Shown here: positions 7,333 to 31,646 of the stretch, one piece after another | Layout: the number at the start of each line of letters is the position of its first letter | Position numbering within the stretch: the first letter of the stretch is position 1 | From: a virus | Length of the DNA: 39,693 bases | Strand: one strand, 5' to 3' | Virus record (IMG/VR): IMGVR_UViG_3300030329_001969 | Location: 1-39,693 of that record | Position numbers and translations under genes: made by a program | The notes under the pieces: generated by a model | The model's input: only the letters and a program-made list of their open reading frames with translations | What the model was told of the DNA's origin: nothing | Database searches by the model: none

Positions 7333-8691
7333 TTATAAAGACTTAATAGCGTCTACGATAGCCGTAGCCATCTGTTGTTTTTTCTGTAAGGCGGATACTA
7401 CCTTTTTATCTAGTTGGGTCCCTATTAAATCAACATACGTAACAGGATAATTCTGTCCATGTCTATGATTTCTGGCCTCAGCCTGTACCCTAGCATCCAG
7501 ATCATAATTGTTCTCATAAAATATTGTAGTATGACAGGGGTTGTTTTTAGTACCAAGCAAAGTATGACCGTATTTACCAGCCGTTAACTGAGCTATCATA
7601 ATGGGGCAACTGTCATAGTTATTAAAATGTTCTTTTTCTATTTTTTGCGATTCTTCACTTTGATCCCCAATTAAATAGGCACTCTCATTTGCAGAAAATC
7701 TATTCATTAATAAAGATATAGATTTTTTATAAAACGCAAAAATTATAACCTTAGTATTAAGTTCTTTAACAATCTCCTCTACTAAGTTAAGTTTGGGGTT
7801 ATCTTTTTCTTCTACTAGCTCGATTGTTTCTCCCTGCTCATCTATAATAAAACCAGAAGAAATTTGTTGTAACTTCATCATTTGCGTGATAACCATCGGT
7901 GCTGTGATGACTTCATCTTTAACATTAAGTACCAAGTCTTTACGCATGGTATTATATTGCAAAAGTTGATCTCCACGTAGTAGGTAATTCCTGGACGTAT
8001 TGAGACTATCCGGAATATCAGTCCACTCGCATTTCCTAGCTCTAAAAGAGTGCTCATCTATCAACTCCGATAATTCTTCTTGGTTTCTAGCCCCAACGAT
8101 TTGTTTACCTAGATACCCGCCCATAACACAAAATCGGTTTCTAAATGCGTATTGGTTTTTACCTACCAACTGGCCTATACATCTAAACTGGCCCCATATA
8201 TCAAGTGGGGATTTAACTATAGGAGCACCTGATAGAATCCTAACGTACTCTGCTTCTGCAGATAATTTAATCATTCGTTTAGTTCGCTTTGCTTGGGGAT
8301 TTTTAACGTGTATTGATTCATCTAGTACCAAATATACTTTTGAGTTCTGCAGTATTTTTTCTAAAAATTTACCCCCTTTTCCTAGTATAGCTTCATAGTT
8401 TATAGCTAAGACTGTAGGAGAGTTAGGCACTGCTGGCCAGATGTCAACTTTAATTGGTACTTCCCACTCTTCGGCTTCTGTAGCCCAAACTTCTTTTAAA
8501 GATTGGGGGCATACGATTACCATAACTTCTACTAAGTCCATTGAGTAAAGGTCTAAAAATTCGTTATAAGCTGTGGCTGTCTTACCTAGACCCATTTCCA
8601 TAAAAAATGCAAACCCTCTACGTCCGTTAGCCTTATCTAAGGCTTTAGTCTGGACGGCATACGGGGTCCCTTTTAAGTGCCAAGGATACAT
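7333..8691 (-). CDS. SNF2-like superfamily 2 helicase
   Basis: 452 residues. Walker A is MGLGKTAT (about 33-40) with an upstream Q-rich N-terminus (YAVQTKALDKA). Motif Ia is CPQSLKEVW. Motif II is DESIHVKNP, the DExx-KN form typical of SNF2/RapA-like proteins. Motif III is LSGAPI. The C-terminal RecA-like lobe has KVIIFAFYKK and motif VI QAEARNHRHGQ, ending before YVDLI. Such phage helicases use ATP to translocate on duplex DNA and act in replication, recombination or roadblock removal. It starts one base after the DatZ stop (TGATATG), so it is translated from the same mRNA as the Z-nucleotide genes. Confidence 0.85.
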   Translation of the reverse strand: MYPWHLKGTPYAVQTKALDKANGRRGFAFFMEMGLGKTATAYNEFLDLYSMDLVEVMVIVCPQSLKEVWATEAEEWEVPIKVDIWPAVPNSPTVLAINYEAILGKGGKFLEKILQNSKVYLVLDESIHVKNPQAKRTKRMIKLSAEAEYVRILSGAPIVKSPLDIWGQFRCIGQLVGKNQYAFRNRFCVMGGYLGKQIVGARNQEELSELIDEHSFRARKCEWTDIPDSLNTSRNYLLRGDQLLQYNTMRKDLVLNVKDEVITAPMVITQMMKLQQISSGFIIDEQGETIELVEEKDNPKLNLVEEIVKELNTKVIIFAFYKKSISLLMNRFSANESAYLIGDQSEESQKIEKEHFNNYDSCPIMIAQLTAGKYGHTLLGTKNNPCHTTIFYENNYDLDARVQAEARNHRHGQNYPVTYVDLIGTQLDKKVVSALQKKQQMATAIVDAIKSL

Positions 8692-8692
8692 A

Positions 8693-9238
8693 TCAAAATC
8701 CCATATCGGTGCATAGGTAGGTGCGCGGCGTTTGATGTACTTTTTCGGTAAGTAAGTCAGGTAGACTTTCGTCTAGTTTGCCAGCTTTATCGACTAGGGT
8801 TTTACATAAGTTAGCAAATAAAAGGTGCACTGTAGTGTTTCCCATAGCCATTTCATCCGCCAGATACATACAAGCTTCAAATATATCCGCAACTTTAACT
8901 ACCTCTATGCAGTATTTTTCTAGTGTAGTGCTGTTCGTCTGTATACTACTAGCCATTTGTCTAGGTATATTCATCATATAATCATCGCTTAACTTAAAAT
9001 GGCGTTTGTATGGAGTAGGTATATCCCCGCTTATCATTTCTTCAAAGTCGTGGGTTAAAGCGTATTGGGAAATCCAATTAATATCAGATTTCTTCATTTT
9101 TATGTGTTTCGCTATAAAGACGGCGTACATAGCCACATAATAAGAGTGCTCTGCAACAGACTGTTGACGTATAGTTCGAATTATTGACCATCTAGGAACG
9201 TGCTGTAAAACTCTTGTTTGGGGGTCTAAAACGTTCAT
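8693..9238 (-). CDS. datZ: DatZ-like dATP triphosphohydrolase (HD domain)
   Basis: 181 residues of the HD-domain YfbR/DatZ group. Visible metal-site residues are His31 (in AEHS), His63-Asp64 (THDFEE) and Asp118 (VKVADIFEA), with GDIPTP at 71-76 and an N-terminal RW (16-17). YfbR-like proteins are 5'-nucleotidases of dNMPs; the phage DatZ subgroup instead strips triphosphate from dATP, removing adenine nucleotide so that the polymerase uses dZTP. Length close to S-2L DatZ and position in the same operon as PurZ and a MazZ-like protein argue for DatZ over a general nucleotidase. Its ATG overlaps the preceding stop (ATGA at 9235..9238). Substrate preference cannot be read from the sequence with certainty. 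Confidence 0.8.
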   Translation of the reverse strand: MNVLDPQTRVLQHVPRWSIIRTIRQQSVAEHSYYVAMYAVFIAKHIKMKKSDINWISQYALTHDFEEMISGDIPTPYKRHFKLSDDYMMNIPRQMASSIQTNSTTLEKYCIEVVKVADIFEACMYLADEMAMGNTTVHLLFANLCKTLVDKAGKLDESLPDLLTEKVHQTPRTYLCTDMGF

Positions 9239-9462
9239 AATGAATATCCTGGAGAAGGTTTTACTACTTTTTTAAACGGGTATATAAGAAGTTTTCTGGC
9301 TTTTGCTTCTTTACACTCCTCATAATAAATTTGCCCCGTGGGCTTATGCCTATACATGTACGCAATAGGTATGTTATTTTCAGACCAAAGACCGTGGGAC
9401 TCAAAATCTTCTAATTTTAATTCTATTTCTTCGGTAACTGTTTTTGTAACGTACGCTTTCAT
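9235..9462 (-). CDS. Unknown 75-residue protein between purZ and datZ
   Basis: A small, mildly basic soluble protein, preceded by GGAG seven bases before its ATG. It has an acidic N-terminal third (TEEIELKLEDFESHG), a central segment with IAYMYRHKPTGQIYYEE and a basic C-terminus (ARKLLIYPFKKVVK). The middle looks like a short beta-hairpin region. I know no family for it. Its position inside the Z-nucleotide operon, overlapping datZ by four bases, makes an accessory role in this pathway worth testing. Confidence 0.7.
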   Translation of the reverse strand: MKAYVTKTVTEEIELKLEDFESHGLWSENNIPIAYMYRHKPTGQIYYEECKEAKARKLLIYPFKKVVKPSPGYSL

Positions 9463-9474
9463 ATTTACTCTCCG

Positions 9475-10530
9475 TTAATTTTTACGTCTGCCTTCAGATA
9501 ACGTAACGTCTTCTATATTGGGGCCCCATCCAAACAGTAGTACGGGTTTTCCAGTTAGGCATTTTTCACTTTCATCCTCTATATCTCTTATTATTGCCGC
9601 TAGCTCAAATTCAGATACGTAATTACAAAAATTAAGAAATACAATACTTGGACGATTTGACATAATTGCATCTTCAAATTGTTGGCGGCTCCAAGTAAAA
9701 ATTCGCCGCACTCGCTTAGTTACGGTGGTTAGCTCTTCTGGTACTCCTAATTTTTCAAAACTAGTTTCTTCCTGATCGGGATAAACATCGCCACTATACC
9801 CTAAGTTTGGAATAGACCCTACTCTAATAGGATGAGTTCGTACCGACATTGCAACGTTCCCTAAAAATCTAGGGTGGATGTCTGCATCAGCTATCCCTTG
9901 CCCCACCGTACAATTTCGTGATGTGCAGTAGGGGTAAAACATACTGTTAACAGACAAGCTGTACCCCTGCGGTACTTCAACCGATACCCGTGCCTTGTCC
10001 ATTAAAGCCTGATTTAAATTTATTGGTGCCACGTTAAAGTAGCTACGAAGCTCAGGTGTATCTCTAGCAATTTCAGCCGTTCTTTTTACCTTACGGGCTA
10101 AAGCTTCTCCTACCCCCTTTCTTGTAGAAGAAATTTTGGTAGTTTGGGAGTCATCCCTATTTTCTGCTTCTATGTCCTCTTTAGTGATTACTGTAGCATT
10201 TGGATGAATAATCACCCTACTGTGTTTTATTCCTAAATCTTCAACCTCTTGTAAAAGTAATTCAACGTTTATAATTGCTCCAGCATTTAAATATATTAAA
10301 CAGTCAGGCTGTATAACCCCAAAAGTTGGTATGTGGTAACAGCAAAAATTCCAATTTTCATTCGTCTTAGATTTGGTCCAGTGACCAGCATTGGCACTGG
10401 CATTTGTGGTTGCTATATCTACTTCGTTCTCAAAACGGGCGGCTAAATATGCGGCTAATAGCCCCTTTCCTGTTGACCCAAACTGTCCGTCCACTAGCAC
10501 AGATGCTTTTCCCTCATTAATGTAACTCAT
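9475..10530 (-). CDS. purZ: PurZ, 2-aminodeoxyadenylosuccinate synthetase
   Basis: 351 residues, homologous to adenylosuccinate synthetase (PurA) but about 80 shorter than E. coli PurA, as in phage PurZ. The N-terminal loop reads DGQFGSTGKG (14-23). Where PurA has G-D-E-G-K-G, this protein has G-S-T-G-K-G, so the catalytic Asp is Ser19, the known hallmark of PurZ. The loop NASANAGH (43-50) keeps the catalytic His50. STRKGVGEALARKV and YPYCTSRNCTVG match PurA substrate-binding loops. PurZ joins dGMP and aspartate to form ADSMP using ATP, dATP or GTP; host PurB then releases dZMP. Start: ATG at 10530 has AAGAG at a proper distance; an in-frame ATG at 10545 would add five residues. It overlaps mazZ by 14 bases. 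Confidence 0.9.
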   Translation of the reverse strand: MSYINEGKASVLVDGQFGSTGKGLLAAYLAARFENEVDIATTNASANAGHWTKSKTNENWNFCCYHIPTFGVIQPDCLIYLNAGAIINVELLLQEVEDLGIKHSRVIIHPNATVITKEDIEAENRDDSQTTKISSTRKGVGEALARKVKRTAEIARDTPELRSYFNVAPINLNQALMDKARVSVEVPQGYSLSVNSMFYPYCTSRNCTVGQGIADADIHPRFLGNVAMSVRTHPIRVGSIPNLGYSGDVYPDQEETSFEKLGVPEELTTVTKRVRRIFTWSRQQFEDAIMSNRPSIVFLNFCNYVSEFELAAIIRDIEDESEKCLTGKPVLLFGWGPNIEDVTLSEGRRKN

Positions 10531-10822
10531 TATCTCTTTTCCCATTCTGATCTGCCCAAATTAAAAACCAAGCGTTACATATAACATGGGCTAGATGGTG
10601 TTGTCCGCTCTCAGGATCAACAATTTCTCCCTGTCTCCACGCCATTAAATGCCTCATCATTGCGTCAAAGTACCTGTCCCAATCGTCACAGTTTTTCCAA
10701 TTATCAACCCCGTACTTATTAGCCCCAAAATCAAAAATTGCAACTACTTGTTCAAGTACCTCATACGGTAACAAACGCCACCTCCTCTTATCCTTATCAA
10801 ATTTTTTATGAACGGCAATCAT
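10517..10822 (-). CDS. mazZ: MazZ-like dATP/dGTP diphosphohydrolase (DUF5664-type)
   Basis: 101 residues, starting at the ATG at 10822 that overlaps the VRR-NUC stop (ATGA), with AAGGA ten bases upstream. The protein matches the phage domain formerly called DUF5664 and now named after dATP/dGTP diphosphohydrolase: KKFDKDKRRWRLLPYEVLEQVV, then FGANKYGVDNW (32-42), RHLMAWRQGE and DPESGQHHLAHVICNAWFL (69-87). In Z-genome phages such an enzyme turns dGTP to dGMP, the PurZ substrate, and can also act on dATP. Direct overlap with purZ supports this role. A second MazG-like protein at 14752..15219 could share or replace the function, so the assignment is by family and context. Confidence 0.7.
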   Translation of the reverse strand: MIAVHKKFDKDKRRWRLLPYEVLEQVVAIFDFGANKYGVDNWKNCDDWDRYFDAMMRHLMAWRQGEIVDPESGQHHLAHVICNAWFLIWADQNGKRDNELH

Positions 10823-11226
10823 GCTAATTTCCTTATCTCTACCTCTGACCAGTATGTGATGGCAGTCACAATTTCTGCTACTTCCCACTCCTTGCCCGTC
10901 ATCGTAACTAAATGACAATTTCCGGCCTTTGGATAAAGTGCGCTTGGGTCCGCTCCTATATACAAGTTATGATAATGTCGTTCCTGTATATGCAAGAGCC
11001 AACCAGCTGGCATGTTCGCGGCGTGTAACCTTTTTAACGTTTCTTGTTGAAGTTTAGTCAGCTTTAATTCATCTTTCTTACACTCAACAAACACGGGGGG
11101 TAGAGTGGCAATTTTTATAAAAAGGTCTGGGACACCCCCTTGGTGTCGGTTTGCCATTTTTATGGCCCACCCTTTCTTTCGTTGGACCTCTTTTACTATA
11201 CGTGCCTGTAATTTTAATTCATCCAT
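10819..11226 (-). CDS. VRR-NUC domain nuclease
   Basis: 135 residues from the ATG at 11226, which overlaps the polymerase stop by eight bases. The VRR-NUC core is plain: GVPDLF (about 30-35, with the catalytic Asp), VFVECKKDELKLTKLQQETLKRL (about 44-66, E-x-K motif and the trailing Q-x-x-x-L-K helix). This is a PD-(D/E)XK-type fold that cuts DNA structures; phage stand-alone VRR-NUC proteins are thought to act as Holliday-junction or branch nucleases in recombination and packaging. It follows the polymerase directly, fitting a replication-repair role. Confidence 0.85.
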   Translation of the reverse strand: MDELKLQARIVKEVQRKKGWAIKMANRHQGGVPDLFIKIATLPPVFVECKKDELKLTKLQQETLKRLHAANMPAGWLLHIQERHYHNLYIGADPSALYPKAGNCHLVTMTGKEWEVAEIVTAITYWSEVEIRKLA

Positions 11227-13018
11227 AACTAGCCTCTGCCCAATTTTTACCTTCACCAACGTCCACATCCATCGGCACTAATAATGAAACCCCTCTGTCT
11301 GGACCAAAGTCCTGCATTATTTTAAGTGCTTGTTCAAATTGGGGCCTATTGTCCTCATAAAATTGAAAATCGATTGAATCATGTATGCTAAGTAACATAT
11401 GAACTTGATCTCCTTCTGATTCTAGGTAGTTGTCTATATCTACCATTGCCTTCTTTATTATGTCAGCGTTTCCACACTGTAGCAACCTGTTTACAGCCTT
11501 GTAACTCATGTCATGGGTTCTTGTATCTAGTCGTGCTCTACGTCCTAGGATACTTCTCACAAAACCCGTCCCCCTCATTTTAGATGCCGCCGCTCTCTGT
11601 AGCTGTTTGATTTCGGGCATTGACCTAAAGTAATCGTCCCAAATCTTTTCCCCTTGCGCCTCTGATACGCCTAATTCAGCAATTAATTTAGCCTTTCCCA
11701 TGCCAGTAAGTAACCCTTGATTCAGCCTTTTACCCGCATCCCTATCTATTCCTGCTGCTTTAGCAACTGCCGTATGTGCATCAATAGGGGGGTTCGATAA
11801 ATACCCCGATAACAGGACTTTACATTTTGAGTAATGGGCTAATAAGCGCGGTTCACACTGGCTGTAATCTACGCTACCCCAAATCATGCCCTCATCCGGT
11901 ATGAACACTGACCTAAACAACTTTCCAAGCTCTACGTTTCTTTTTGGTACTTGTTGCATATTCGGCCTAGATGAGCTTAACCTACCTGTTATTGTGCCGT
12001 ATTGGTCAGACCTCGACTGATTAAACTCTGTGTGTATTCTACCTTGGTGCATATAGGCGTACATGGGGTTAATAAACGAGTTGATTAAATTACCATACTT
12101 TCTAGCGGCAATAATTTTCTTGCCAAGGCTATTGGTTAGTAACCAACTTTCTGCAAACGATGGGTTTCCCTTATCCGTAGTGGGATAATCAGTAATTCCC
12201 GCATCGTCAAACAGTGCCTTCATCTGTGCGCCAGACCGGATATTTAAATCTGAAGGCAGATCGTTTTTAGCCTCTTCTAATTTTTGCGTGGTCTGATTGG
12301 CTACTTTATCTAATCTATCCTCATCTATATTAACCCCACGAGTTACCATCCTATGTAGTACCCGTATTACCTGATTTTCTAAGTGCCAAACCTGCCGTAA
12401 ATCTTGCTGGTCCAAATCTTTCTGTTGCTTTTCCCATAATTGGTAGGTAGAAGTTCCATCCCCTTCAGCATAGTCTACCCCCATTTCATCATTGCCACTT
12501 AAACGCCAGAAATTGGACATCTGTTTGCTCGTGTCCGGTCCCCCAAATTTTCCTTTTAGGTACTGGTACAGTTCGCTTCCTTTTTTAGGCTGTACCCCCG
12601 CATCGATACAACAATTTTCTAATGAATACGATGATCGATATTCGTTAATCAAACCAGCGTTGATCATTGTATCTTCAAAAGTACACTTTGATATGTCAAT
12701 CTGGTGTTTATGTAAAAATTTTAAATCAAAGGCTAAATTATGACCAATTAGATGGATACTGCGCTCTTTAAATATAGAGTGAACATCCATTTCAAAAGGG
12801 TGTAATTTTAATGTTTGTGTGGTTTCTGCGTCCTCTGGGGGGTAAAAGTCATAAAGGTTATTAGCCCTGTGGCGCACTGGTATATAATAACTATCAGCAG
12901 GATTTGGAGAAAAAGTAAAAACATAACCAACAATATAATTGCGCTTCCAATCCAAGCCACTAGTTTCGACATCGATTACTACCTTATCTGTAGTTGATAG
13001 CTTATTTAACACTTCCAT
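11219..13018 (-). CDS. Family A DNA polymerase with 3'-5' exonuclease (DpoZ candidate)
   Basis: 599 residues. The proofreading exonuclease is intact: ExoI DVETSGLD (about 16-23), ExoII HNLAFDLKFL, ExoIII DYAEGDGTSTYQLW. Polymerase motif A is VDYSQCEPRLLAHYS, motif B RDAGKRLNQGLLTGMGKAKL, motif C SIHDSIDF. There is no 5'-3' exonuclease domain. Motif C has Ser where most family A enzymes have Glu (HDE), and motif A has C-E-P for the usual I-E-L. It replicates the phage genome, likely with the PrimPol encoded upstream. In phages with purZ the family A enzyme (DpoZ) favours dZTP over dATP; whether this one does cannot be seen. ATG at 13018 follows a hairpin that may attenuate transcription. Confidence 0.9.
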   Translation of the reverse strand: MEVLNKLSTTDKVVIDVETSGLDWKRNYIVGYVFTFSPNPADSYYIPVRHRANNLYDFYPPEDAETTQTLKLHPFEMDVHSIFKERSIHLIGHNLAFDLKFLHKHQIDISKCTFEDTMINAGLINEYRSSYSLENCCIDAGVQPKKGSELYQYLKGKFGGPDTSKQMSNFWRLSGNDEMGVDYAEGDGTSTYQLWEKQQKDLDQQDLRQVWHLENQVIRVLHRMVTRGVNIDEDRLDKVANQTTQKLEEAKNDLPSDLNIRSGAQMKALFDDAGITDYPTTDKGNPSFAESWLLTNSLGKKIIAARKYGNLINSFINPMYAYMHQGRIHTEFNQSRSDQYGTITGRLSSSRPNMQQVPKRNVELGKLFRSVFIPDEGMIWGSVDYSQCEPRLLAHYSKCKVLLSGYLSNPPIDAHTAVAKAAGIDRDAGKRLNQGLLTGMGKAKLIAELGVSEAQGEKIWDDYFRSMPEIKQLQRAAASKMRGTGFVRSILGRRARLDTRTHDMSYKAVNRLLQCGNADIIKKAMVDIDNYLESEGDQVHMLLSIHDSIDFQFYEDNRPQFEQALKIMQDFGPDRGVSLLVPMDVDVGEGKNWAEASYG

Positions 13019-13033
13019 TTTTATGCCCTATCT

Positions 13034-13061
13034 AAAGAAGCTCCACCCGTTAGGGTGGAGC
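13034..13061 (-). terminator. Hairpin terminator or attenuator before the polymerase gene
   Basis: On the minus strand GCTCCACCC and GGGTGGAGC (13053..13061 and 13040..13048) form a perfect nine-base-pair stem around a four-base loop, followed by TTCTTT. It lies between the ssDNA-binding-like gene and the polymerase. The U tract is short and interrupted, so partial read-through is likely; this would set a lower level for the polymerase and Z genes than for the upstream gene. Confidence 0.6.
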
Positions 13062-13077
13062 ACCTTACCTTTCCTAT

Positions 13078-13917
13078 TTAATAGTCGTCCGTGTCTTCAA
13101 CATCGCCGTTTTCATCCTCGTCGCCACCTGCAATGCCAAAGCCCTTATTAGAGAAATGCTCGTACATTTCCTTATAGGTAGGCACTTCGGCCTCAGATAC
13201 TAATTGAGCAACTGAACGGCCATTTGACCCTTTCGACACGCTTGCACTAAAGTGCCAGTTAAAGTAACTCTCGTTGTCGGTGTTGCGGTCTTTCTTGCTG
13301 GTCATATCAAAGATACGTGCCCAACTTGGGAGTTTGCTTATCGCTAATTTCGACACAAACTGTTGACCTACCTTAAAAGAAGATCGTTGCAACGAGATCG
13401 CCGCTGGGCTTAAATCAAGGTGGTCCGGAAACATAGCTATGATATTTATCATCCTAGTAGCCGCTGGATGAGAATTTTTATCATCGGGGTCCATAGTTCC
13501 AAAATCAGTAAGACCCCCCTGTTGGACGGTTTTACCCGTGTTCCAGGTTACATTCTTACCCGTATCAAGTTTTACGTCAAACTCCGTGTTTGGACGGTCC
13601 CAATGAATTCCATCATCCGCACGGGCTAGGATACCACCACCATCCTTACGGGGTCTCCATAAAATTACGGATTGGGATACAAATACAGGGACCATTTTTA
13701 GGCTATCCCCCATAGATGTTTCAGCTACAGTGTGATAAAACTCACCCGCCTTGCCGCCATCGTCCATCACTTCTGGACTTAATCCCTGTAGCAACTTAAT
13801 GCGGGGTACGATTGTAAGGTCAGATACGTGCTCTGTGCCTTGACCTTGGTACTGTGCCAAATAATCAGGTACACTTACCTCTTGACTTTGATCTTTTTTA
13901 GCTGGTGCTTTTGCCAT
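13078..13917 (-). CDS. Putative single-stranded DNA-binding protein
   Basis: 279 residues, starting MAKAPAKK with a strong AGGAGA site upstream. The central region (about 30-240) is mixed alpha/beta without a motif I can name. The C-terminus (about 258-279) is highly acidic, GDEDENGDVEDTDDY, ending in an aromatic residue, like the tails of T7 gp2.5 and other phage SSBs that contact polymerase and helicase. Position next to the polymerase, separated only by an attenuator-like hairpin, fits an abundant replication protein. The call is from tail and context, not from OB-fold recognition. Confidence 0.5.
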   Translation of the reverse strand: MAKAPAKKDQSQEVSVPDYLAQYQGQGTEHVSDLTIVPRIKLLQGLSPEVMDDGGKAGEFYHTVAETSMGDSLKMVPVFVSQSVILWRPRKDGGGILARADDGIHWDRPNTEFDVKLDTGKNVTWNTGKTVQQGGLTDFGTMDPDDKNSHPAATRMINIIAMFPDHLDLSPAAISLQRSSFKVGQQFVSKLAISKLPSWARIFDMTSKKDRNTDNESYFNWHFSASVSKGSNGRSVAQLVSEAEVPTYKEMYEHFSNKGFGIAGGDEDENGDVEDTDDY

Positions 13918-13927
13918 ATCTATTCTC

Positions 13928-14419
13928 CTAGCTAACCTTCGTCATTGATGTGTTTTCGTAGCTATAGATGTTAAATACGTCATCTGGTAAATCAATACCC
14001 TCAGACATTAAACTCTTAGCCGTTGCAGAAAGAGTAGAAGAATTAACCGTCTCAGTAATCAAGTCTTCTAGCCCGTTATTGCGAAGCCATTCATAAGCCT
14101 CGTCTTTTCTATCCTTCTGGATAGTAGTACGTGATTGTGCAGAAACGGTAAATCGATACCCGTTTACCGTCATGCTGGATACACCCTGCTCAGTAAACTT
14201 CTTCGGCACAATTTCTTCTTTCATGCGCTTATGTAATTCACCAAATCGGGATTTTAGATACTTCAAATTTTCGTCTACGTGGCGTATATCCTGTAGAAGA
14301 GATACTACAGTGGGTACATCACACATAAGAATATTTTCCATATCCTTCTCTGCGTCTAATGCGGTCTGGTTGATCGCATCAATCATGTTTTTAAAGTCTT
14401 CTAGTTCTTTTTCAGTCAC
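13928..14419 (-). CDS. Conserved-type phage protein, N-terminal coiled coil, unknown role
   Basis: 163 residues beginning at a GTG at 14419 with AGATAGGAGAA nine bases upstream. The first 75 residues are helical and charged. The second half holds a small beta segment (SSMTVNGYRFTVSAQSRTT) followed by helical EAYEWLRNNGLEDLI and LPDDVFNIYSYENTS. The pattern recalls small proteins encoded next to SSB genes in other phages, but I know no assigned function. It sits 10 bases upstream of the SSB-like gene in the same operon, so a replication accessory role is a reasonable guess. Confidence 0.6.
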   Translation of the reverse strand: MTEKELEDFKNMIDAINQTALDAEKDMENILMCDVPTVVSLLQDIRHVDENLKYLKSRFGELHKRMKEEIVPKKFTEQGVSSMTVNGYRFTVSAQSRTTIQKDRKDEAYEWLRNNGLEDLITETVNSSTLSATAKSLMSEGIDLPDDVFNIYSYENTSMTKVS

Positions 14420-14762
14420 TAATTTGTTCTCCTATCTCAATTTCATAGTACCCCTTAAGCTTCTTATCATACTTAAGAAATACAGATGGTAACAGCCGCT
14501 TCCTTTCTAACCATATGGCTATAGTTGAAACGACACACGAATCGCCCAGAGGGACGATATAATCACACTCAGGGTCAAAGTCATGCATGGTCTTGTCACA
14601 TGCCGCTAAAATCTCCCTAGTGTAAATATTTACATCATCGGGGAAGTACCCACGTCTTAGTAGTGGGACCAAGCTTCCCCAACGAGACAAACTCTCAACG
14701 TCATGCTTATCACTAGGGATAGCCGTAATAAAGCACCTAGCAAACAAGTATCTAGCTGACAC
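14412..14762 (-). CDS. Hypothetical 116-residue protein
   Basis: Starts at a GTG (14762) that overlaps the end of the MazG-like gene by 11 bases; GGAAAG lies just upstream. The stop overlaps the next gene's start. It has no TM segment or clear motif. DYIVPLGDSCVVSTIAIWLERKRLLPSVFLKYDKKLKGYYEIEI in the C-terminal half looks like an alpha/beta fold, with VPLGDS resembling a nucleotide-binding loop only loosely. It is translationally coupled on both sides, which supports real expression. Function unknown. Confidence 0.6.
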   Translation of the reverse strand: MSARYLFARCFITAIPSDKHDVESLSRWGSLVPLLRRGYFPDDVNIYTREILAACDKTMHDFDPECDYIVPLGDSCVVSTIAIWLERKRLLPSVFLKYDKKLKGYYEIEIGEQISD

Positions 14763-15219
14763 TTTCCAGCATCCTTTTTAAATTATACAGCTGTGTGTCA
14801 GACACTACTGATTCAAACTCTCTTAGATGAGGATCGTCGTATTTGTACTTTAAGTCATGCCTTACGCGGTCTATCCATTGAAGAGTAGGTGTTGATTCAA
14901 ATAAATTCAGCTGTGCACCCTCAGAAAAAAGATTTTCTTTAAGTTTACGGTCTAAAACAGAAGAAAGGATCATAGCGAAGTTTGCTACGTCTGCCGCTTC
15001 ACGATGAACGCTGTCTGCGTCCTCGTTATAAATTGCGTCCTCTAGCTCTCTTACCTCGCCTTCTAAACCTTTAAGAGCAGTAAGGACATCAACTTTATTC
15101 CAATGCCCCTTGTGTGTATTTGCTTGTAGCTTAACTAACATCCGATTCACAAAAGACCAGATGTCTCCAGCGTACTCTTCTGTTCCTTCGGGGAGTGTTA
15201 TGGTAATTGATCGTCCCAT
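14752..15219 (-). CDS. MazG-like nucleotide pyrophosphohydrolase
   Basis: 155 residues with the MazG all-alpha NTP pyrophosphohydrolase pattern: HKGHWNKVDVLTALKGLEGEVRELEDAI (about 37-64) gives the first E-x-x-E-x-x-E-like helix, and HREAADVANFAMILSSVL (about 71-88) gives the E-x-x-D helix that completes the Mg site. Such enzymes split (d)NTP to (d)NMP plus pyrophosphate. In a phage with PurZ it is a second candidate for making dGMP or clearing dATP, besides the DUF5664-type protein at 10517..10822. Alternatively it may lower host ppGpp, as proposed for other phage MazG proteins. It is the first gene after the promoter at 15302..15331. Confidence 0.75.
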   Translation of the reverse strand: MGRSITITLPEGTEEYAGDIWSFVNRMLVKLQANTHKGHWNKVDVLTALKGLEGEVRELEDAIYNEDADSVHREAADVANFAMILSSVLDRKLKENLFSEGAQLNLFESTPTLQWIDRVRHDLKYKYDDPHLREFESVVSDTQLYNLKRMLESVS

Positions 15220-15349: not shown

Positions 15350-15395
15350 ACGTAGTTTTCAGCTTTGAACGTAGTTTTCAGCTTTGAACGTAGTT
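15350..15395. repeat. 19-bp tandem duplication at the end of a small early gene
   Basis: The unit AGTTTTCAGCTTTGAACGT occurs twice in direct succession (15354..15372 and 15373..15391) with partial copies on each side. Because 19 is not a multiple of three it shifts the reading frame at the C-terminus of the gene at 15359..15883. Confidence 0.9.
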
Positions 15396-15883
15396 CCGTC
15401 GATGGTTACGTCTAGGCCTTTTCTCAACCTGCCACGTAGACGATTTCCGATATTCATCCGTTGCATGCCATTATTTAAATGTTCATACTTAGCTGGATCA
15501 ATGTCATTGTCTGCGGCTATAGCGTAGAGGTTAGGTATAGAAACTTTACCCTCTCCATTTACAGTTGCCTCTGTAAGAGTAGAAGCTATGTCATCCCCAC
15601 AGGAATCATTATTTGCCCTGTAAGTTTGTCTGTATCCGTCATCCATGATACGGTTTTTGCTTAACAAATCGCGAATGCTTTGTGCTGGAACACCACTATC
15701 TTTTCTGGTGATTGCTTCATCAAGTCCCGCTTTTGGGTCCGAATTTGTTGCCCATATTACAGGGTCTACTGCGTCTTTAAAAACGAACACGTCAGAAGGA
15801 CCACCCTCTTTAACTTGGTCCATTGTCGTGATTAGAATTTTAGCTTTTTCCGCTTTTGCAACGGTAGCGTGATGTAGTTTCAT
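15359..15883 (-). CDS. Early small protein, paralogue A of the 'W/Y-x-x-LNxG' family
   Basis: 174 residues. The N-terminal half (about 1-95) is specific to this copy. The C-terminal 80 residues match three other proteins in this window: SCGDDIA, then NDIDPAKYEHLNNGMQRMN, IGNRLRGRLRKG and a short beta end VTIDG. The shared core is basic and helical and could bind nucleic acid or protein; I know no function. Its start has AGATAGGAAAGG upstream and its own promoter at 15926..15954. A 19-bp tandem duplication has changed the natural C-terminus from YVD to YVQS. Confidence 0.7.
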   Translation of the reverse strand: MKLHHATVAKAEKAKILITTMDQVKEGGPSDVFVFKDAVDPVIWATNSDPKAGLDEAITRKDSGVPAQSIRDLLSKNRIMDDGYRQTYRANNDSCGDDIASTLTEATVNGEGKVSIPNLYAIAADNDIDPAKYEHLNNGMQRMNIGNRLRGRLRKGLDVTIDGTTFKAENYVQS

Positions 15884-15958: not shown

Positions 15959-16243
15959 TTATTCTTTAAACTCCTTATCTCCTATGCGAACTACCCCGCC
16001 TCTACGAATTATACCACGTAAAACGTTACCAAGTAGCATCCGCCGCTGTCCTGCGTTGAGGTGGTTCCACTTTGAAACAGCTACCTTATTGCTTTCAGCT
16101 ACGTTTTTCATTTTTTCGGGATCAGTCCTACCCGTTTCGGGATCAGTTAAGAAGGCCGACAAAGCTTCAGCTACTTCGTCACTACAAGTTCCAGAACGTC
16201 CATACTTTTGCATAAACTTTCTTGTCATAAAATCTCCGCTCAT
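15959..16243 (-). CDS. Early small protein, paralogue B of the 'W-x-x-LNxG' family
   Basis: 94 residues, nearly only the shared domain: TCSDEVAEALSAFL, then NKVAVSKWNHLNAGQRRML, LGNVLRGIIRRGGVV and RIGDKEFKE. AGAGAGGAAAAA gives a good ribosome site before the ATG at 16243; a second ATG at residue 6 also has GGAG upstream. It lies ten bases after the PrimPol stop and 76 bases before paralogue A, suggesting local gene duplication. Function unknown. Confidence 0.7.
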   Translation of the reverse strand: MSGDFMTRKFMQKYGRSGTCSDEVAEALSAFLTDPETGRTDPEKMKNVAESNKVAVSKWNHLNAGQRRMLLGNVLRGIIRRGGVVRIGDKEFKE

Positions 16244-16253
16244 TTTTTCCTCT

Positions 16254-18566
16254 CTAGAAGTCTAAGTTTCTTTGATCAAAAGGCGGGGGTGCTTCGTAAT
16301 GGGACGCTATTTCAGCCTCTCCCGCCGACATCCACGTTTTGTAGTTTCTTACTGCCCATAGTTTTATTTTTTTACCCATCATTCTTTTAGCCCCCAAATT
16401 AGTGTACCCAAGCCTCTTTAAAGTCTGAGTAAGAGCAATCGGGTTTATACCTTTGAATCCCGGAGCTGTGTTCACTGCATGGGCTAAGTCAGTTGCGTTA
16501 ATCAAGTCACAGGCCATAGGCCACTCATCGTTATTTACGCACTCCATAATATATGAATCCATCGGCCTTGTTGTTTCGTCCACCATGTCGTGGAAATGTT
16601 TAGTCTTAGGCGGTGGGGCCTCAGGGTCAAAATTACTAAGATCGAAGTCTATTGCCCATCTGTATATAGTGGATAAGTTGTCCTTGGTCCAACTAAACAA
16701 CTTTTTATAATATGACGGGGGTTGCGGGTCCGCCTCAGACATCCACACCCAAAAACGACGACTGTCCTTATCTAGGATAATCGCGTTTGTGTGGTTAGTT
16801 GTACAGAAGAAAGATGCGGGGTTATTCGATACATAACTATCGGTCCTCATTTTTCGAATTGTAACGTTATCCTCAGACAACATAGGCTTCATCCGGTTTG
16901 CGATTTCTAATCGACCACCTGCCATAAGTTCTTCAATAAAGACAATTTCTGAATTTGCTAGCCAATCGTTGTACTGTTCTTTAAGCTGGTCCGTGCCAAC
17001 TTCCATTACATGGTCGTTACCAATAATGCCCCGAAATACCTGCTTGAGGTAACTCTTTCCTGTCCCCTCTTTATGAGAGCCGATAACCACAGCGTGTCTT
17101 AACCTTCTTCCAGGATTCGCTACCACGTGGGCTATACAGGATGCTAAATGATGAAATCCGTCTTCATCGCCATCCGTTAAATAGTGTAGGTGGTCTGTAA
17201 AAATAGAAACGTCCGCACCTTCATCACTTGGAATTATCCGTCTTGGTTGCCACGTGTTATAAATTCGACGACCCTTGTACATCGACATGGTTTCGTCTAC
17301 TCCCGGAACAAATTCACAAGTGTCCACCATTTTCAAATCTGGAGACTCAAGTAGAAGTTTAGCAATATTCTTTCCGGGAGCCATAGCCGCATGCGCTCTT
17401 TGCACCGCTGTGGGGGTAAAAGTTAAGTCTTTTACTGGATGGTAAAAAGCCTCTTCAAAAGCGACATAAATGTAGGTACTTAGTAACTCCGATATATCAA
17501 CTTTAGCTCTAGTCCCTCTAGCGAACCCTTTATTGATCGCACCTTCAATCAAACCGTCTAAAAATGAATCAGACTTATACCTGTCTACCTCTGACGGACC
17601 TCTATCCTCAGACACTTCAGCGTCATCGATGTAACTACGAACCAACCTTTTTAATTCGGTACGTGCCGCACTCTCAGGCTCTCCATGAAAATTGATCCAA
17701 CTCGCAATCCCCTGCATTATGGGGTGGTGGAACCCGTCCTTATCGTCCCCGACTGAGTTAAGAAAGCGCATATACTTTCTATCCTCTGGCTCGTCTTCAG
17801 AGGTGTAAATCCATTCTCTGGATAAAGGAACTGTATCATTAGCCCCTTTTATCACACCGCTTCGCTGTGCCATGGGGTCCTCTACGTCCTCAATAACCGG
17901 AGCCGCAGTATAATGAGGCTGTATCGGGTTAAACAAGGCGGGGTCCACCAATCTCCTCCCATATACCCCTAGGAAAGATTCGTTAAAAGTTTGAAAGTAC
18001 CGCTTTAAATCTTCATCACTGATGGGTACATCCAAAACAAAAGAAATGTGACAACTGACCGTCGTACCTTTGAACCCCGCACTGGCTGAATACCGCCAAT
18101 GGCAGGATGTGTCGTGAAATGCCGAAGGTAAAAGATCAATTACGTCACGAATCGTTGTCTCAGGGTCTTTGGGGTCAAATTCATGGCTGAGTATCTTTTT
18201 ATTCTTATCAGCTGGCAAACCATCGATGTCCAGAGTGACCCATCGCCTTAGCACGGGGGTTACCGTACCCTCTCCCGTAGCACGGACAATCCGACGCACA
18301 TCACAAGACAGGTCCGTTGTTTTTGACGGATGGCCGCGCACGATAAAAGAGTATTGAAGTTTTTGAAGCTTTTCTAACTGGTCAAAAAATTCGTCCGGTG
18401 TGTCAAACCTTCTAGTTCTAAACTGAAAGTTCTTTGCCACCTTGTGGCTAACCGTCTTACCCTTTTTGATGGTCTTGGTGCAGATTGATTTTGGAACAGG
18501 CGTAAGTATTAGGTACTCGTGCGGTACTGCTTCCTCGACTAGCTCTGCTTCTACTGTACGTGCCAT
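16254..18566 (-). CDS. PrimPol: AEP primase-polymerase fused to SF3/D5-like helicase
   Basis: 770 residues from the ATG at 18566 (the frame extends upstream only through a terminator hairpin). The N-terminal archaeo-eukaryotic primase domain has WVTLDIDGL (about 106-114, D-x-D metal motif), SCHISFVLD (S-x-H motif) and DPALFNPIQP. The C-terminal ATPase has Walker A SHKEGTGKS, Walker B SEIVFIEEL, and FFCTTNHTNAI followed by the arginine pair DSRRFWVW, matching DUF5906-type helicases. Such enzymes prime DNA synthesis and unwind DNA at phage origins. Phage S-2L, another Z-genome virus, also uses a PrimPol. Only weak GGTGGT lies before the start. It follows a strong terminator, so expression needs read-through or an unseen promoter. 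Confidence 0.85.
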   Translation of the reverse strand: MARTVEAELVEEAVPHEYLILTPVPKSICTKTIKKGKTVSHKVAKNFQFRTRRFDTPDEFFDQLEKLQKLQYSFIVRGHPSKTTDLSCDVRRIVRATGEGTVTPVLRRWVTLDIDGLPADKNKKILSHEFDPKDPETTIRDVIDLLPSAFHDTSCHWRYSASAGFKGTTVSCHISFVLDVPISDEDLKRYFQTFNESFLGVYGRRLVDPALFNPIQPHYTAAPVIEDVEDPMAQRSGVIKGANDTVPLSREWIYTSEDEPEDRKYMRFLNSVGDDKDGFHHPIMQGIASWINFHGEPESAARTELKRLVRSYIDDAEVSEDRGPSEVDRYKSDSFLDGLIEGAINKGFARGTRAKVDISELLSTYIYVAFEEAFYHPVKDLTFTPTAVQRAHAAMAPGKNIAKLLLESPDLKMVDTCEFVPGVDETMSMYKGRRIYNTWQPRRIIPSDEGADVSIFTDHLHYLTDGDEDGFHHLASCIAHVVANPGRRLRHAVVIGSHKEGTGKSYLKQVFRGIIGNDHVMEVGTDQLKEQYNDWLANSEIVFIEELMAGGRLEIANRMKPMLSEDNVTIRKMRTDSYVSNNPASFFCTTNHTNAIILDKDSRRFWVWMSEADPQPPSYYKKLFSWTKDNLSTIYRWAIDFDLSNFDPEAPPPKTKHFHDMVDETTRPMDSYIMECVNNDEWPMACDLINATDLAHAVNTAPGFKGINPIALTQTLKRLGYTNLGAKRMMGKKIKLWAVRNYKTWMSAGEAEIASHYEAPPPFDQRNLDF

Positions 18567-18686
18567 ACCACCACTAAACCATACCCGCCGTGTACTGTCA
18601 ATAAATTTTTCCAAAAAAAGACCCCTGCACCGCAATGGGAAGTGCAGGGGTTAAGGTCAGGGAGTATTACGACTACTGTACGTGCC
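18551..18686. repeat. 14-bp direct repeat flanking the terminator
   Basis: CTACTGTACGTGCC occurs at 18551..18564 and at 18673..18686. On the minus strand the downstream copy begins in the third base of the PrimPol ATG and the other lies upstream of the terminator. It could be a control site, or the scar of a duplication that placed the terminator between the copies. Confidence 0.6.
18613..18650 (-). terminator. Rho-independent terminator before PrimPol
   Basis: Minus strand: CCCCTGCAC pairs with GTGCAGGGG (nine base pairs, 11-base loop, 18622..18650), followed by TC and seven T (18613..18619). It ends the first early transcript after paralogue C. Confidence 0.85.
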
Positions 18687-18713: not shown

Positions 18714-19196
18714 CTAGGTAGGGGTCAACAGTTTGTCAAGATAATCGTTGTCCACCAGCTCCCCCCCAATATAGACTTTATCGCCTTTGTAGAACTTACC
18801 TCTGATCGTGTTGGTCAGGTTCATCGCCACCTGTCCGTTATTCAAGTCATCCCACCTTGCGGGGTTGATTCCGTTTTCCTTTGCTAATTCGTAGCAAGCC
18901 GATCTCCGCTCAGGGCCTTTTAAAGAACCAAGCCACTTTTTAATTGCAACCGTGGTAGGGTGCTGTACTTTCTCCCCTTTTACTTCTTTCCTTTCAAGAC
19001 GTGCGTCATAGGCTTCTTTGCGAATCTTTGCCCCCTCAACCTTTGCATTCCAACGGTGAGAGGTCGGCATTTTTAATAATGCTCCCGGATGAAGTTTACG
19101 TTGCTCATCTTCAAGTTTTGCTAGCCTCTTGTCCTCTTCGGTAATCGGCCTAATTAAAAAATCAGGAATATCAAGTAGGTCCTCTGTGTCTGTCAT
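18714..19196 (-). CDS. Early small protein, paralogue C of the 'W-x-x-LNxG' family
   Basis: 160 residues. The first 90 residues are charged and specific to this copy (acidic start, then K/R/E-rich). The shared domain follows: SACYELAKENGINPARWDDLNNGQ, VAMNLTNTIRGKFYKGDKVYIGGELV. It is the most diverged of the four, with T replacing G in the L-G-N block and no S-C-x-D-D start. The ATG at 19196 has AGATAGGAGAA upstream; a terminator follows 63 bases after the stop. Function unknown. Confidence 0.7.
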   Translation of the reverse strand: MTDTEDLLDIPDFLIRPITEEDKRLAKLEDEQRKLHPGALLKMPTSHRWNAKVEGAKIRKEAYDARLERKEVKGEKVQHPTTVAIKKWLGSLKGPERRSACYELAKENGINPARWDDLNNGQVAMNLTNTIRGKFYKGDKVYIGGELVDNDYLDKLLTPT

Positions 19197-28320: not shown

Positions 28321-28914
28321 ATGGCTTCAGAAGTTTCTATTTGTAATCTTGCTCTTACAAAAATTGGTGAAGATCAGATAATATCCTTATCAGAGAATAG
28401 TAAAGCGGGTCGTCTTTGTAATCTACATTATTCTACTACTAGAGACGCTGTACTAAGAAGTCATATATGGAACTTTGCGATAAAAAGAGTAGAATTAGCT
28501 CTTAGCACCACAACCCCCGCATATGATTATGCCTACCAATTTGCTTTACCTGCTGACTACATACGAATTTTAGAAACTAATCTCACCAATACAGCTGAGT
28601 GGAAAATTGAAAACGGATTCTTGCTTGCAGATAGCGATTCGGTTAAAGTGCGGTATCTTGCTCAAATTACAAACCCAAATGAATTTGATGCATTATTTAT
28701 AGAGGCTTTTTCCTCCAGACTTGCCGCAGAGTTAGCCATACCTCTTGCAGATAGTTTGAATATGTCAAAAATGATGTTTGATTTATATTCTAGTAAAATT
28801 GCAGAGGCTAGGACTATGGACGCTGTAGAGGGCACTCCAGATAATATAGAGGCAGATTCTTGGTTAAACGCTAGAGTTGGTCTTGTAACGGCAACGTCTA
28901 CATCTACGTCATGA
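28321..28914 (+). CDS. Tail tubular protein A (T7 gp11-like adaptor)
   Basis: 197 residues. The opening SEVSICNLALTKIGEDQIISL and AVLRSHIWNFAIKRVEL are the classic signs of this adaptor family, followed by YDYAYQFALPADYIRIL. It binds the portal ring and links it to the nozzle. ATGA overlap with the next gene at 28911..28914. Confidence 0.9.
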   Translation: MASEVSICNLALTKIGEDQIISLSENSKAGRLCNLHYSTTRDAVLRSHIWNFAIKRVELALSTTTPAYDYAYQFALPADYIRILETNLTNTAEWKIENGFLLADSDSVKVRYLAQITNPNEFDALFIEAFSSRLAAELAIPLADSLNMSKMMFDLYSSKIAEARTMDAVEGTPDNIEADSWLNARVGLVTATSTSTS

Positions 28915-31646
28915 CTAGAGCTACTTATATTCAAACTAATTTTACTGCGGGGGAAGTTTCCCCCCGTTTACATTCTAGAGTTGATGTTACTAAGTACGCA
29001 AATGCATGTAAAACCCTTGAGAATATGATAGTTATTCCCCAAGGGGGAGCTTCTAGACGAGGGGGAACAAAATTTATTGCAGAGGGTAAAACAAATAATA
29101 AAAAAGTCAGGCTCTACCCTTTTGAGTTTTCAGTAACCCAAGCATATGTGTTAGAGTTTGGCGATCAGTACATTAGGTTTTATAAAGATCAGGGGCAAAT
29201 ACAAGAATCTACAAAAGCCATCAGTGCCGTTACTCAGGCCAACCCCTGCGTGGTAACGGCTAATTCCCACGGATATAACAATGGTGAAGAAGTATACATA
29301 TCCGGTGTTGTTGGGATGACTGAATTAAATGGTAAGCACTATAAAGTAGCTGATAAAACTACTAATACTTTTGAATTACAAAATATGTTATCCTCTGATA
29401 TAAACAGTTCAGGGTTTACCGCATATTCTTCTGGGGGGACAGCGGCTAGGGTGTATACTATTACTTCTCCTTATTTAGAAGCTGAATTATATGAACTACA
29501 GTTTACTCAATCTGCAGACATATTGTATATATCCCATAAAAATCACGAGCCAAGAACTTTATCTCGTACAGGGCATACTAGCTGGACGTTGGCTACTTAT
29601 GAGTTGTTGTCTGGGCCTATGTTGTCGGCCAATACCACAACAACTACTTTAACCCCAAGTGCAACGTCTGGTTCAGGTATTACCATTACAGCTTCTGCAA
29701 TTGCGGGTATTAATGGAGGTGCAGGGTTTGCGGCCTCTGATGTGGGTAGAATTATCCGTATAAAGCATTCTTCTGATGTGGGGTTCGCTAAAGTTACGGG
29801 GTTTACTGATACCACCCATGTTACTGCTACTTCAACTACGGATTTTGGGGCTACTACAGCATCATCGGATTGGTCTTTAGGGTATTTTTATACGGATAAT
29901 TGGCCCTCTTGTGTAGCGTTTTATGAGCAAAGGCTAGTGTGGGCGGGTGCTCCACAGTACCCGCAATTGATGGCTTTTAGTGTGTCTGGGGATTATACTA
30001 ATCATTTAGCGGGGTCTTCTGCTGATGACGCTATGGTGTACACAATTGCAACGGACCAAGTTAATGCTATTCAATGGATGAATCCTGGGCCTGTCCTGTC
30101 CGTTGGAACAGCAGGCGGAGAATTTATTGTGTCGGCTTCTTCTGAGGACGAGGCTCTTACCCCTACAAACGTTCGTGTTGTTCGACATACCACCTTTGGT
30201 AGTGGGGACATTAGTGCTCTTCGTGTATCAAATGTGGTATTGTTTATACAAAGGGCAAAGCGAAAAATTAGAGAATTTGTGTATAAATTTGAATCTGATA
30301 CATATGTGGCCCCTGATTTAACTTTATTGTCTGAACATATAACAAAAACAGGTATAATTCAGATAGATTATCAACAGGAACCGGACTCTATCTTATGGTG
30401 TGTCCTAACTGATGGCACATTGTTAGGAATGACTTATCAAAGGGACCAAGAAGTAATTGCGTGGCATAGACACATAGTTGGGGGGGTATCAGATACAGCG
30501 GGGACACAAGCTCAAGTTGAATCTGTTGCAGTTATTCCAGGAACAGCTGATGATGGCGCGGGTATTGATGAAATATATGTTGCGGTTAAGAGGTACATAA
30601 ATTCGGCAGAGCGTAGGCATATTGAACGAATCACTCCGGGATTAGAACTTACAAATTCACAAGAGGAGTCCTTTTTTGTAGATAGTGGATTATCCTTAAA
30701 TACCCCTGTTACAATTACAGCGGCTACTTCTGCGGACCCTGTTGTAGTTACAGCTGCTTCTCATGGTTTTAGTGACGGGGACGTAGTAAAGATACGTGAT
30801 GTTAAGGGCATGACAGAAGTTAACAACCGTAGCTTTATAGTTGCAAGTAAAGCTACAAATACTTTTTCTTTAGTACCAAATTCTAGCCCCCTATCCGCTA
30901 GTATTACGGCGATTACTAAGGCGAATCCTGCGGTGGTAACTGCAACTTCCCATGGGTTGTCGAATTCCGATAAGATATATATTTCTGATGTTGCAGGAAT
31001 GACTCAGGTTAATGGGTTGGTGTTTACAGTAGCAAACAAAACTGATAATACATTTCAGTTGTCGGGTATTAATAGTTCAGGGTATGGCACATACGCATCT
31101 GGCGGATACATACGTCATGCGGAAAACGGTACGGCGTTTACAACGTATGTATCTGGGGGTACAGTTAGAGTACAGACCACATCAATTACGGGGCTGGATC
31201 ATTTAGAGGGACAGTCAGTAAGTATTCTAGGTGACGGGGCTGTGCAACCATCTAAAACAGTATCTAGTGGTGCAATTACTTTGTCTACATCAGCTAGTAT
31301 TGTTCATGTGGGCCTTCCGTATACATCAAAATTGGTTACTTTAAACATTGAAGCAGGTAGCCAAGACGGTACAGCGCAATCTAAAACTAAACGTATTAAT
31401 GAACTTACAGTAAGACTTTACAGATCATTAGGTATGTCTGCTGGCCCAGAAGGAGGTACTTTAGATGTTGTTCCCTTTAGAGATAGTTCTGACGCTATGG
31501 ATGTTGCTACCGCTTTATTTACAGGGGATAAAAGTTTACCATACCCAAAGGGGTATGAAACCAGTGCAAATATCGAGATACAGCAGACGGACCCACTACC
31601 CCAGACTGTTTTGGCATTAATAACTAAACTTAATACGAATAATTAG
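28911..31646 (+). CDS. Tail tubular protein B (T7 gp12-like nozzle)
   Basis: 911 residues. The start TNFTAGEVSPRLHSRVDVTKY...NACKTLENMI and GGASRRGGTKF are hallmarks of the gp12 nozzle. Three copies of a roughly 60-residue beta module are inserted (about 101-180, 600-660, 662-740), each with the frame 'I-x-A-x-T-x-A-x-P-x-V-V-T-A-x-S-H-G', then 'V-x-G-M-T-(E/Q)-(L/V)-N' and 'N-T-F'. Such modules resemble E1-FCCH-like beta domains in other phage nozzles. They may decorate the outside of the tail and bind fibres or host glycans. Confidence 0.9.
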   Translation: MTRATYIQTNFTAGEVSPRLHSRVDVTKYANACKTLENMIVIPQGGASRRGGTKFIAEGKTNNKKVRLYPFEFSVTQAYVLEFGDQYIRFYKDQGQIQESTKAISAVTQANPCVVTANSHGYNNGEEVYISGVVGMTELNGKHYKVADKTTNTFELQNMLSSDINSSGFTAYSSGGTAARVYTITSPYLEAELYELQFTQSADILYISHKNHEPRTLSRTGHTSWTLATYELLSGPMLSANTTTTTLTPSATSGSGITITASAIAGINGGAGFAASDVGRIIRIKHSSDVGFAKVTGFTDTTHVTATSTTDFGATTASSDWSLGYFYTDNWPSCVAFYEQRLVWAGAPQYPQLMAFSVSGDYTNHLAGSSADDAMVYTIATDQVNAIQWMNPGPVLSVGTAGGEFIVSASSEDEALTPTNVRVVRHTTFGSGDISALRVSNVVLFIQRAKRKIREFVYKFESDTYVAPDLTLLSEHITKTGIIQIDYQQEPDSILWCVLTDGTLLGMTYQRDQEVIAWHRHIVGGVSDTAGTQAQVESVAVIPGTADDGAGIDEIYVAVKRYINSAERRHIERITPGLELTNSQEESFFVDSGLSLNTPVTITAATSADPVVVTAASHGFSDGDVVKIRDVKGMTEVNNRSFIVASKATNTFSLVPNSSPLSASITAITKANPAVVTATSHGLSNSDKIYISDVAGMTQVNGLVFTVANKTDNTFQLSGINSSGYGTYASGGYIRHAENGTAFTTYVSGGTVRVQTTSITGLDHLEGQSVSILGDGAVQPSKTVSSGAITLSTSASIVHVGLPYTSKLVTLNIEAGSQDGTAQSKTKRINELTVRLYRSLGMSAGPEGGTLDVVPFRDSSDAMDVATALFTGDKSLPYPKGYETSANIEIQQTDPLPQTVLALITKLNTNN

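Follow-up and report, generated by a model that had tools for sequence, protein, structure and literature searches.

A predicted Z-genome gene set with a rearranged order and an OH-type DNA polymerase in an uncultured podovirus-like phage

Phages that carry 2-aminoadenine (Z) in place of A depart from the standard DNA alphabet over the whole genome, and how a polymerase comes to choose Z rather than A is unsolved. In both described clades of the Z-phage polymerase DpoZ, the otherwise strictly conserved tyrosine of helix O (Y766 of the E. coli enzyme) is replaced with phenylalanine, the sole change common to the two, and a single mutation was deemed unlikely to explain this choice (PMC8599892). 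Among the accompanying genes, mazZ is said always to lie between purZ and datZ (PMC8342488), and two independent acquisitions of DUF5664 proteins by Z phages have been described (PMC12884076). Here we examine a gene set of this kind in the IMG/VR record IMGVR_UViG_3300030329_001969, 39,693 nt that were analysed at full length (hereinafter, the window) and that an earlier note, made from the sequence alone, had described as carrying a complete Z cassette in a T7-like podovirus. From its sequence, the window phage very likely has a Z-genome (ZTGC-DNA) system, with Z in place of A. The trait itself is already known; what is new is a rearranged gene set combined with a polymerase that is devoid of the features that mark the known Z polymerases. 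The best relatives of PurZ, the polymerase PolA and MazZ-2 in phage records all come from Ochrobactrum phage vB_OspP_OH (OH).

All seven genes that the earlier note assigned to the cassette were found where it had placed them, on the minus strand and in one leftward operon; Pfam, PHROG and NCBIfam, with which the gene families were called, concur on the SNF2 helicase, the DatZ/YfbR-like protein, PurZ, DUF5664 and PolA. The Z cassette is real, but it reaches beyond the interval 7333-13018 in which it had been declared complete: the product taken for a MazZ-like hydrolase is indeed a nucleotide hydrolase by family, but it belongs to DUF5664, and the actual MazZ-2 is encoded outside that interval. 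The junctions of the operon are +1, -4, +12, -29, -4 and -8 nt after refinement of the starts. The genes are the following.

7333-8691, minus strand: SNF2-family helicase, the last gene of the cassette (PF00176, 9.2e-13; phrog_62, 8e-94; 38% identity to OH p36)
8693-9238, minus strand: DatZ, predicted HD-domain dATP triphosphohydrolase (PF12917, 3e-18; best PHROG phrog_7076, dATP triphosphohydrolase)
9235-9462, minus strand: open reading frame (ORF) of 75 amino acids (aa), kept in the marine clade (profile matches in contigs L018, L065, L019/L020 and L066)
9475-10545, minus strand: PurZ, N6-succino-2-amino-deoxyadenylate synthetase (NF038379, 7.9e-74; PHROG family phrog_1211; possible alternative start at 10530)
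10517-10822, minus strand: DUF5664, predicted dATP/dGTP-type (pyro)phosphohydrolase (PF18909, 1.2e-32; ATGA overlap; relatives of the same size)
10819-11226, minus strand: VRR-NUC-like nuclease (PF08774, 0.0016, below the cut-off; phrog_93; synteny with OH p30)
11219-13018, minus strand: OH-type PolA with 3'-5' exonuclease and polymerase (PF00476, 5.2e-65; DpoZ, NF038380, is the best NCBIfam match, below the cut-off)
14752-15219, minus strand: MazZ-2, predicted MazG-like (d)GTP diphosphohydrolase (48% identity to OH MazZ-2; acidic metal-site residues)

Gene content and order, like the clade memberships and active-site residues given below, are direct observations. The IMG/VR contigs L018, L019, L020, L065, L066 and L067 share the layout of the window as far as each contig extends, the common order being primase-polymerase (PrimPol) - MazZ-2 - gp32-like - Gam - gp34-like - PolA - VRR - DUF5664 - PurZ - (75-aa ORF) - DatZ - SNF2, and because the whole layout is conserved in other contigs, a chance arrangement is ruled out. 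Since L019 and L020 are identical in scores and coordinate offsets over their shared region, we count about five distinct relatives. The mazZ-2 gene lies upstream of polA, outside the purZ-datZ interval, in the window and also in L020, L065, L066 and L067.

The assignment of PurZ is carried by its active site and its phylogeny. Ser24, within the QFGSTGKG motif, stands where PurA has the catalytic Asp13 (Asp in E. coli PurA), and serine occupies the catalytic position in 99 of the 99 phage PurZ rows in which this position was resolved. In the phylogenetic comparison of PurZ with PurA that the earlier note had proposed as a check, and in which the outgroup was a single PurA, that of E. coli, with no archaeal PurA, the window protein branches with phage PurZ (support 97, starred), to the exclusion of PurZ0 and E. 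coli PurA. More specifically, it falls in an OH-type clade of 68 rows (99, starred), apart from the phiVC8/SH-Ab/S-2L group, and there in a six-row clade (99, starred) in which GHT beside the nucleotide-donor loop is replaced with GHW; in S-2L PurZ, the contacts of this loop are G51, H52 and T53 (PMC8342488).

The associated hydrolases likewise retain the expected signatures. In an alignment of DatZ, the counterparts of the S-2L residues R19, W20, I22, Q29, A32, G74, P79, K81 and K116 are all conserved; R19, W20, I22, P79, K81 and K116 are among the phosphate- and base-contact residues of S-2L DatZ (PMC8065100). MazZ-2 retains the conserved acidic metal-site residues (the E..E and E..D pattern); its sole phage-record match at E <= 1e-3 is the OH protein, and its identity to MazZ-2 of Alteromonas phage ZP6 is 40%. 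The DUF5664 protein aligns at 32% identity with the N-terminal portion of the MazZ fusion proteins of Acinetobacter phage SH-Ab 15497 and of PMBT28. The DUF5664 proteins of the window clade form one group (96, starred), with the nearest phage-record relatives, at about 50% identity, in phages such as Edwardsiella KF-1, Erwinia MIF8 and Pseudoalteromonas TW1, not among the known Z-phage DUF5664 proteins; SH-Ab (33%) and Wayne (40%) are more distant. On sequence grounds this looks like another separate acquisition, with modest branch support (93).

The window polymerase falls in the OH-type PolA clade (100, starred), which is large and known almost entirely from uncultured phages and whose placement as sister group of the phiVC8-type clade (100, starred) has a support of 87, unstarred, in a tree that was built without the alignment columns of the residue changes discussed below and in which the non-Z sampling spans two main clades. 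Its predicted structure has a normal PolA fold (pLDDT 88.9), similarly near to Klenow (TM 0.82) and to phiVC8 DpoZ (7PBK; TM 0.79-0.80). Two alignments equate T438, Q434 and S548 of the window protein with Y766, F762 and E883 of E. coli, respectively; the helix-O position is thus occupied by Thr438 in the window and by Ser in OH, and not by the Phe of both described DpoZ clades. Insertion 1 of DpoZ is present in the window PolA, but equally so in its non-Z relatives.

The association of these polymerases with PurZ is tight. Among the 77 IMG/VR loci that were retrieved with the OH-type polymerase alone, 63 hold at least 2 kb downstream, and PurZ is encoded in 61 of these, the two PurZ-less loci being L174, a short contig, and L188. 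Eight polymerase loci were PurZ-less within the fetched stretch; when their whole contigs were searched, PurZ turned up in L186 and, as a truncated piece, in L141. L188 (positions 9977-14854 of IMGVR_UViG_3300014969_000027) encodes an OH-type polymerase together with VRR and SNF2, with Asn at Y766 and Ser at E883; PurZ was not found in the whole 46.5-kb contig, and the locus looks like a loss of the Z cluster.

Changes of the helix-O tyrosine track PurZ across 145 PurZ-positive and 56 PurZ-negative loci, which argues for a Z-genome system in the window phage, subject to shared ancestry. The tyrosine is changed in 135 of the 145 former loci (T in 103, F in 25, S in 6 and N in 1) and, among the 56 latter loci, which have good flanks, kept in 55, with L188 as the only exception; the corresponding contingency (Fisher, 9e-38) is not independent evidence because of shared ancestry, and the independent pairs of tyrosine state and PurZ on starred branches number only 3, too few for significance. 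The polymerase tree requires at least five changes at this position. Given that the basal OH-type members L097, L086, L030, L027, L079 and L080 keep the tyrosine, the threonine most simply arose within the clade, separately from the phenylalanine of the phiVC8 and PurZ0 clades. Keanu, a PurZ0 phage, also keeps the tyrosine and has Ser at E883. In view of Keanu and the basal OH-type members, loss of the tyrosine is not universal and is at most a putative requirement. Tentatively, OH-type PolA can be viewed as a third kind of Z-dedicated polymerase, in which selectivity would come from Tyr to Thr/Ser, often with Glu to Ser in motif C and without insertions 2 and 3, the PurZ0- and phiVC8-type enzymes mostly having Phe. 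If so, loss of the helix-O tyrosine would be a repeated, possibly causal step in fitting PolA to Z:T pairs, and the surrounding gene set would display repeated recruitment of DUF5664.

Substrates, Z content and polymerase preference can be predicted from characterised homologues (PMC8342488, PMC8065100, PMC12884076), and the following pathway is the most probable one. MazZ-2, probably aided by DUF5664, would convert dGTP to dGMP, from which, with aspartate, PurZ would make dSMP; host PurB and kinases would then convert dSMP to dZMP and on to dZTP; DatZ, and probably DUF5664 as well, would remove dATP; and OH-type PolA, with the PrimPol-helicase and the SNF2 helicase, would copy the genome with Z opposite T. 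The earlier proposal that Z replaces A in this phage is well supported by the sequence, namely, by the PurZ clade and catalytic serine, the DatZ residues, MazZ-2 and the PurZ-linked polymerase.

Several observations weigh against it. PurZ scores 248.5 bits, under the cut-off of 300 for the NCBIfam PurZ family (NF038379); however, OH PurZ is likewise under this cut-off (241.4 bits), which indicates that the cut-off does not cover the OH-type clade, so that this is a database threshold and no biological feature. The Thr of the GHT loop, common to almost all others, is Trp in the window PurZ, a replacement that could alter the use of the nucleotide donor. The polymerase scores 328.8 against a DpoZ (NF038380) cut-off of 500 and lacks insertions 2 (helix O) and 3 (fingers tip) of the phiVC8-type DpoZ, with an R754-K758 spacing of 5 vs 12 and a Y766-tip spacing of 25 vs 43-45 in phiVC8, K300, ZP6 and SH-Ab. 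Finally, the literature gave no base chemistry for OH, the closest cultured relative.

Conceivably, dZTP is made by the cassette but the replacement of A by Z is incomplete, with a weakly selective polymerase and a Z content set by the depletion of dATP by DatZ and DUF5664, much as in S-2L, whose PrimPol is non-selective. The polymerase has features compatible with this scenario, given that insertions 2 and 3 are missing and the helix-O tyrosine is replaced with Thr, not Phe; moreover, the window phage encodes two predicted dATP-removing enzymes, and in S-2L it is DatZ that confers selectivity, not the polymerase. Nevertheless, we consider partial replacement unlikely: an OH-type polymerase hardly ever occurs without a linked PurZ, and DatZ was undetected in 35 of the 101 OH-type PurZ loci with SNF2 (L170, L155, L134, L179 and others, in which PurZ, MazZ-2 and SNF2 are present), which suggests that the polymerase itself contributes. 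In most of the DatZ-less loci with coordinates listed, purZ, mazZ-2 and snf2 are almost contiguous, and all 8 of the tyrosine-retaining loci in the 101-locus set have DatZ (p = 0.048, uncorrected); these sequence patterns hint that a selective polymerase can stand in for the removal of dATP.

It is also possible, although improbable, that the PrimPol-helicase is the main replicative polymerase and PolA is accessory, an arrangement that is compatible with Z-DNA. The PrimPol-helicase is encoded in the same operon, and the sole polymerase of S-2L is a PrimPol; against this, PolA lies within the cassette, adjoining VRR-DUF5664-PurZ, and co-varies with it, and the PrimPol profile was detected in 79 loci vs 160 for PolA, counts that are affected by contig truncation. 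That PurZ and its partners are only auxiliary genes of nucleotide salvage in a phage with ordinary DNA, as the OH genes were first read by the authors of the OH report (PMC7139368) and in keeping with the failure to find a direct base analysis of the OH-type clade in the literature, is very hard to reconcile with the catalytic Asp to Ser replacement, the placement of PurZ, the co-conservation of DatZ and MazZ-2 and the linked polymerase substitutions.

Turning to the phage that would possess this Z-genome system, the window is an essentially complete genome of an uncultured podovirus-like bacterial virus. Its ends, 2-292 and 39403-39693, overlap over 291 bp at 92% identity, with 23 mismatches, within a tail-fibre ORF, and contig L001 of the same virus (99.8% identical; 99.77% over 10,077 bp) spans the end junction and matches the end copy exactly; the bridging contig and the end overlap imply a circle of about 39.4 kb. 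The 99.77% identity of L001 fits all differences falling within the 291-bp end stretch, and this, with the exact match to the end copy, suggests local variation in the fibre gene. The label T7-like did not survive: the T7-type RNA polymerase expected of Autographiviridae (PF00940) was not found in the window by a search that recovered the T7 positive control, and the virion proteins match Pelagibacter phage HTVC010P (terminase, 47%; portal, 48%; capsid, 57%; tail tubular B, 54% identity), so that the phage is HTVC010P/Enhodamvirus-like; given these genes, its habitat is probably marine. Because the capsid, terminase and portal of the Z phage ZP6 are homologous to those of HTVC010P (PMC8515928), there is a precedent for Z genes in a phage with virion proteins of this kind. 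Other parts of the earlier description proved sound: the LPD38 ejection protein (PF18857, 6.7e-37), the PrimPol-helicase and, on the strength of the layout conserved in relatives and the clade placement of PolA and PurZ, a new lineage of Z phages. The phage records contained no relatives of the window at the DNA level. Upstream of polA, the following genes are found in addition to mazZ-2.

13078-13917, minus strand: Pam3 gp34-like early protein, conserved neighbour (PF23977; 37% identity to OH p26)
13928-14419, minus strand: Pam3 gp33-like/Gam-like protein, conserved neighbour (PF23984; 49% identity over 71 aa to OH p24)
14412-14762, minus strand: Pam3 gp32-like protein, conserved neighbour (PF23992; present in L020, L065, L066 and L067)
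16254-18635, minus strand: PrimPol-helicase, primase-polymerase with a VapE/DUF5906 helicase (PF19263, PF05272; phrog DNA primase; matches the OH primpol profile)

Three small leftward ORFs (15359-15883, 15959-16243 and 18714-19196) share a C-terminal segment (32-45% identity) and form a small paralog family adjoining the PrimPol gene. In the tail tubular-like protein 28911-31646, internal segments match the same HTVC010P region (about 8326-8613) repeatedly, which suggests inserted domain repeats. Within the cassette, the VRR-NUC call stands in part, being sub-threshold in Pfam (18.9 vs a cut-off of 23.8) and supported by synteny and phrog_93; its gene probably starts at about 11226, not 11268. 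The DUF5664 gene probably starts at ATG 10822, not TTG 10918, given that its relatives have about 100 aa and that this ATG and the VRR stop codon overlap as ATGA. The 75-aa ORF, which sits in the slot where other OH-type phages have mazZ-2, was undetected in L067 and has no family match in Pfam, PHROG or NCBIfam; its AlphaFold model (pLDDT 81.5) gave no fold match in the PDB, the best hits, to kinase fragments at E 0.5, not being meaningful. A shrunken MazZ-2 was considered for this ORF and rejected, given that it lacks a MazG motif and that the true MazZ-2 sits elsewhere.

Beyond the window, more than 530 stretches in IMG/VR encode PurZ and 200 phage records have a PurZ match, which indicates that the cultured examples greatly understate how common Z phages are. 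The candidate third polymerase type alters the same helix-O residue, to Thr or Ser, and a few PurZ phages keep the Tyr, so that natural variants are at hand for a direct test. Two large phages (L028 and L032, contigs of 111 and 161 kb) combine an OH-clade PurZ with an ordinary, distant PolA that keeps the Tyr and the Glu. Separately, PurZ-like genes with the catalytic Ser are present in bacterial assemblies, on the contigs L194 and L195 of metagenome-assembled genomes, the latter 994 kb long; no other cassette gene was detected within 10 kb of either, and a prophage, a host gene and misbinning are the candidate readings.

Compared with the known systems, the window resembles cyanophage S-2L in having PurZ, MazZ and DatZ together with PrimPol and VRR-NUC, but S-2L has MazZ-1 and no PolA. 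With HTVC010P it shares the terminase, portal, capsid and tail tubular proteins (47-57%), whereas HTVC010P has no PurZ and the leftward replication genes of the window found no match there. As in SH-Ab 15497, a DUF5664 nucleotide hydrolase is encoded beside PurZ; there, however, it is fused to DUF550 (MazZ), whereas in the window it is a separate gene. phiVC8 and ZP6 (Enhodamvirus/Mareflavirus) similarly encode PurZ, MazZ-2, DatZ and PolA in one early operon, but their PurZ and PolA belong to other clades, and their DpoZ carries both the helix-O Phe and insertions 2 and 3. OH (Wolominvirus) differs in that its MazZ-2 lies between PurZ and p34/DatZ, with p31 before PurZ, whereas the window has MazZ-2 upstream of PolA, and its PurZ stands between DUF5664, which comes first, and the 75-aa ORF; the terminase (42%) is the only structural gene of OH that matches the window. 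Nevertheless, the two phages share the order PrimPol ... gam - gp34-like - PolA - VRR - (extra gene) - PurZ - ... - DatZ - SNF2, with identities of 44% for PurZ, 36% for PolA, 38% for SNF2, 48% for MazZ-2 and 35% for DatZ.

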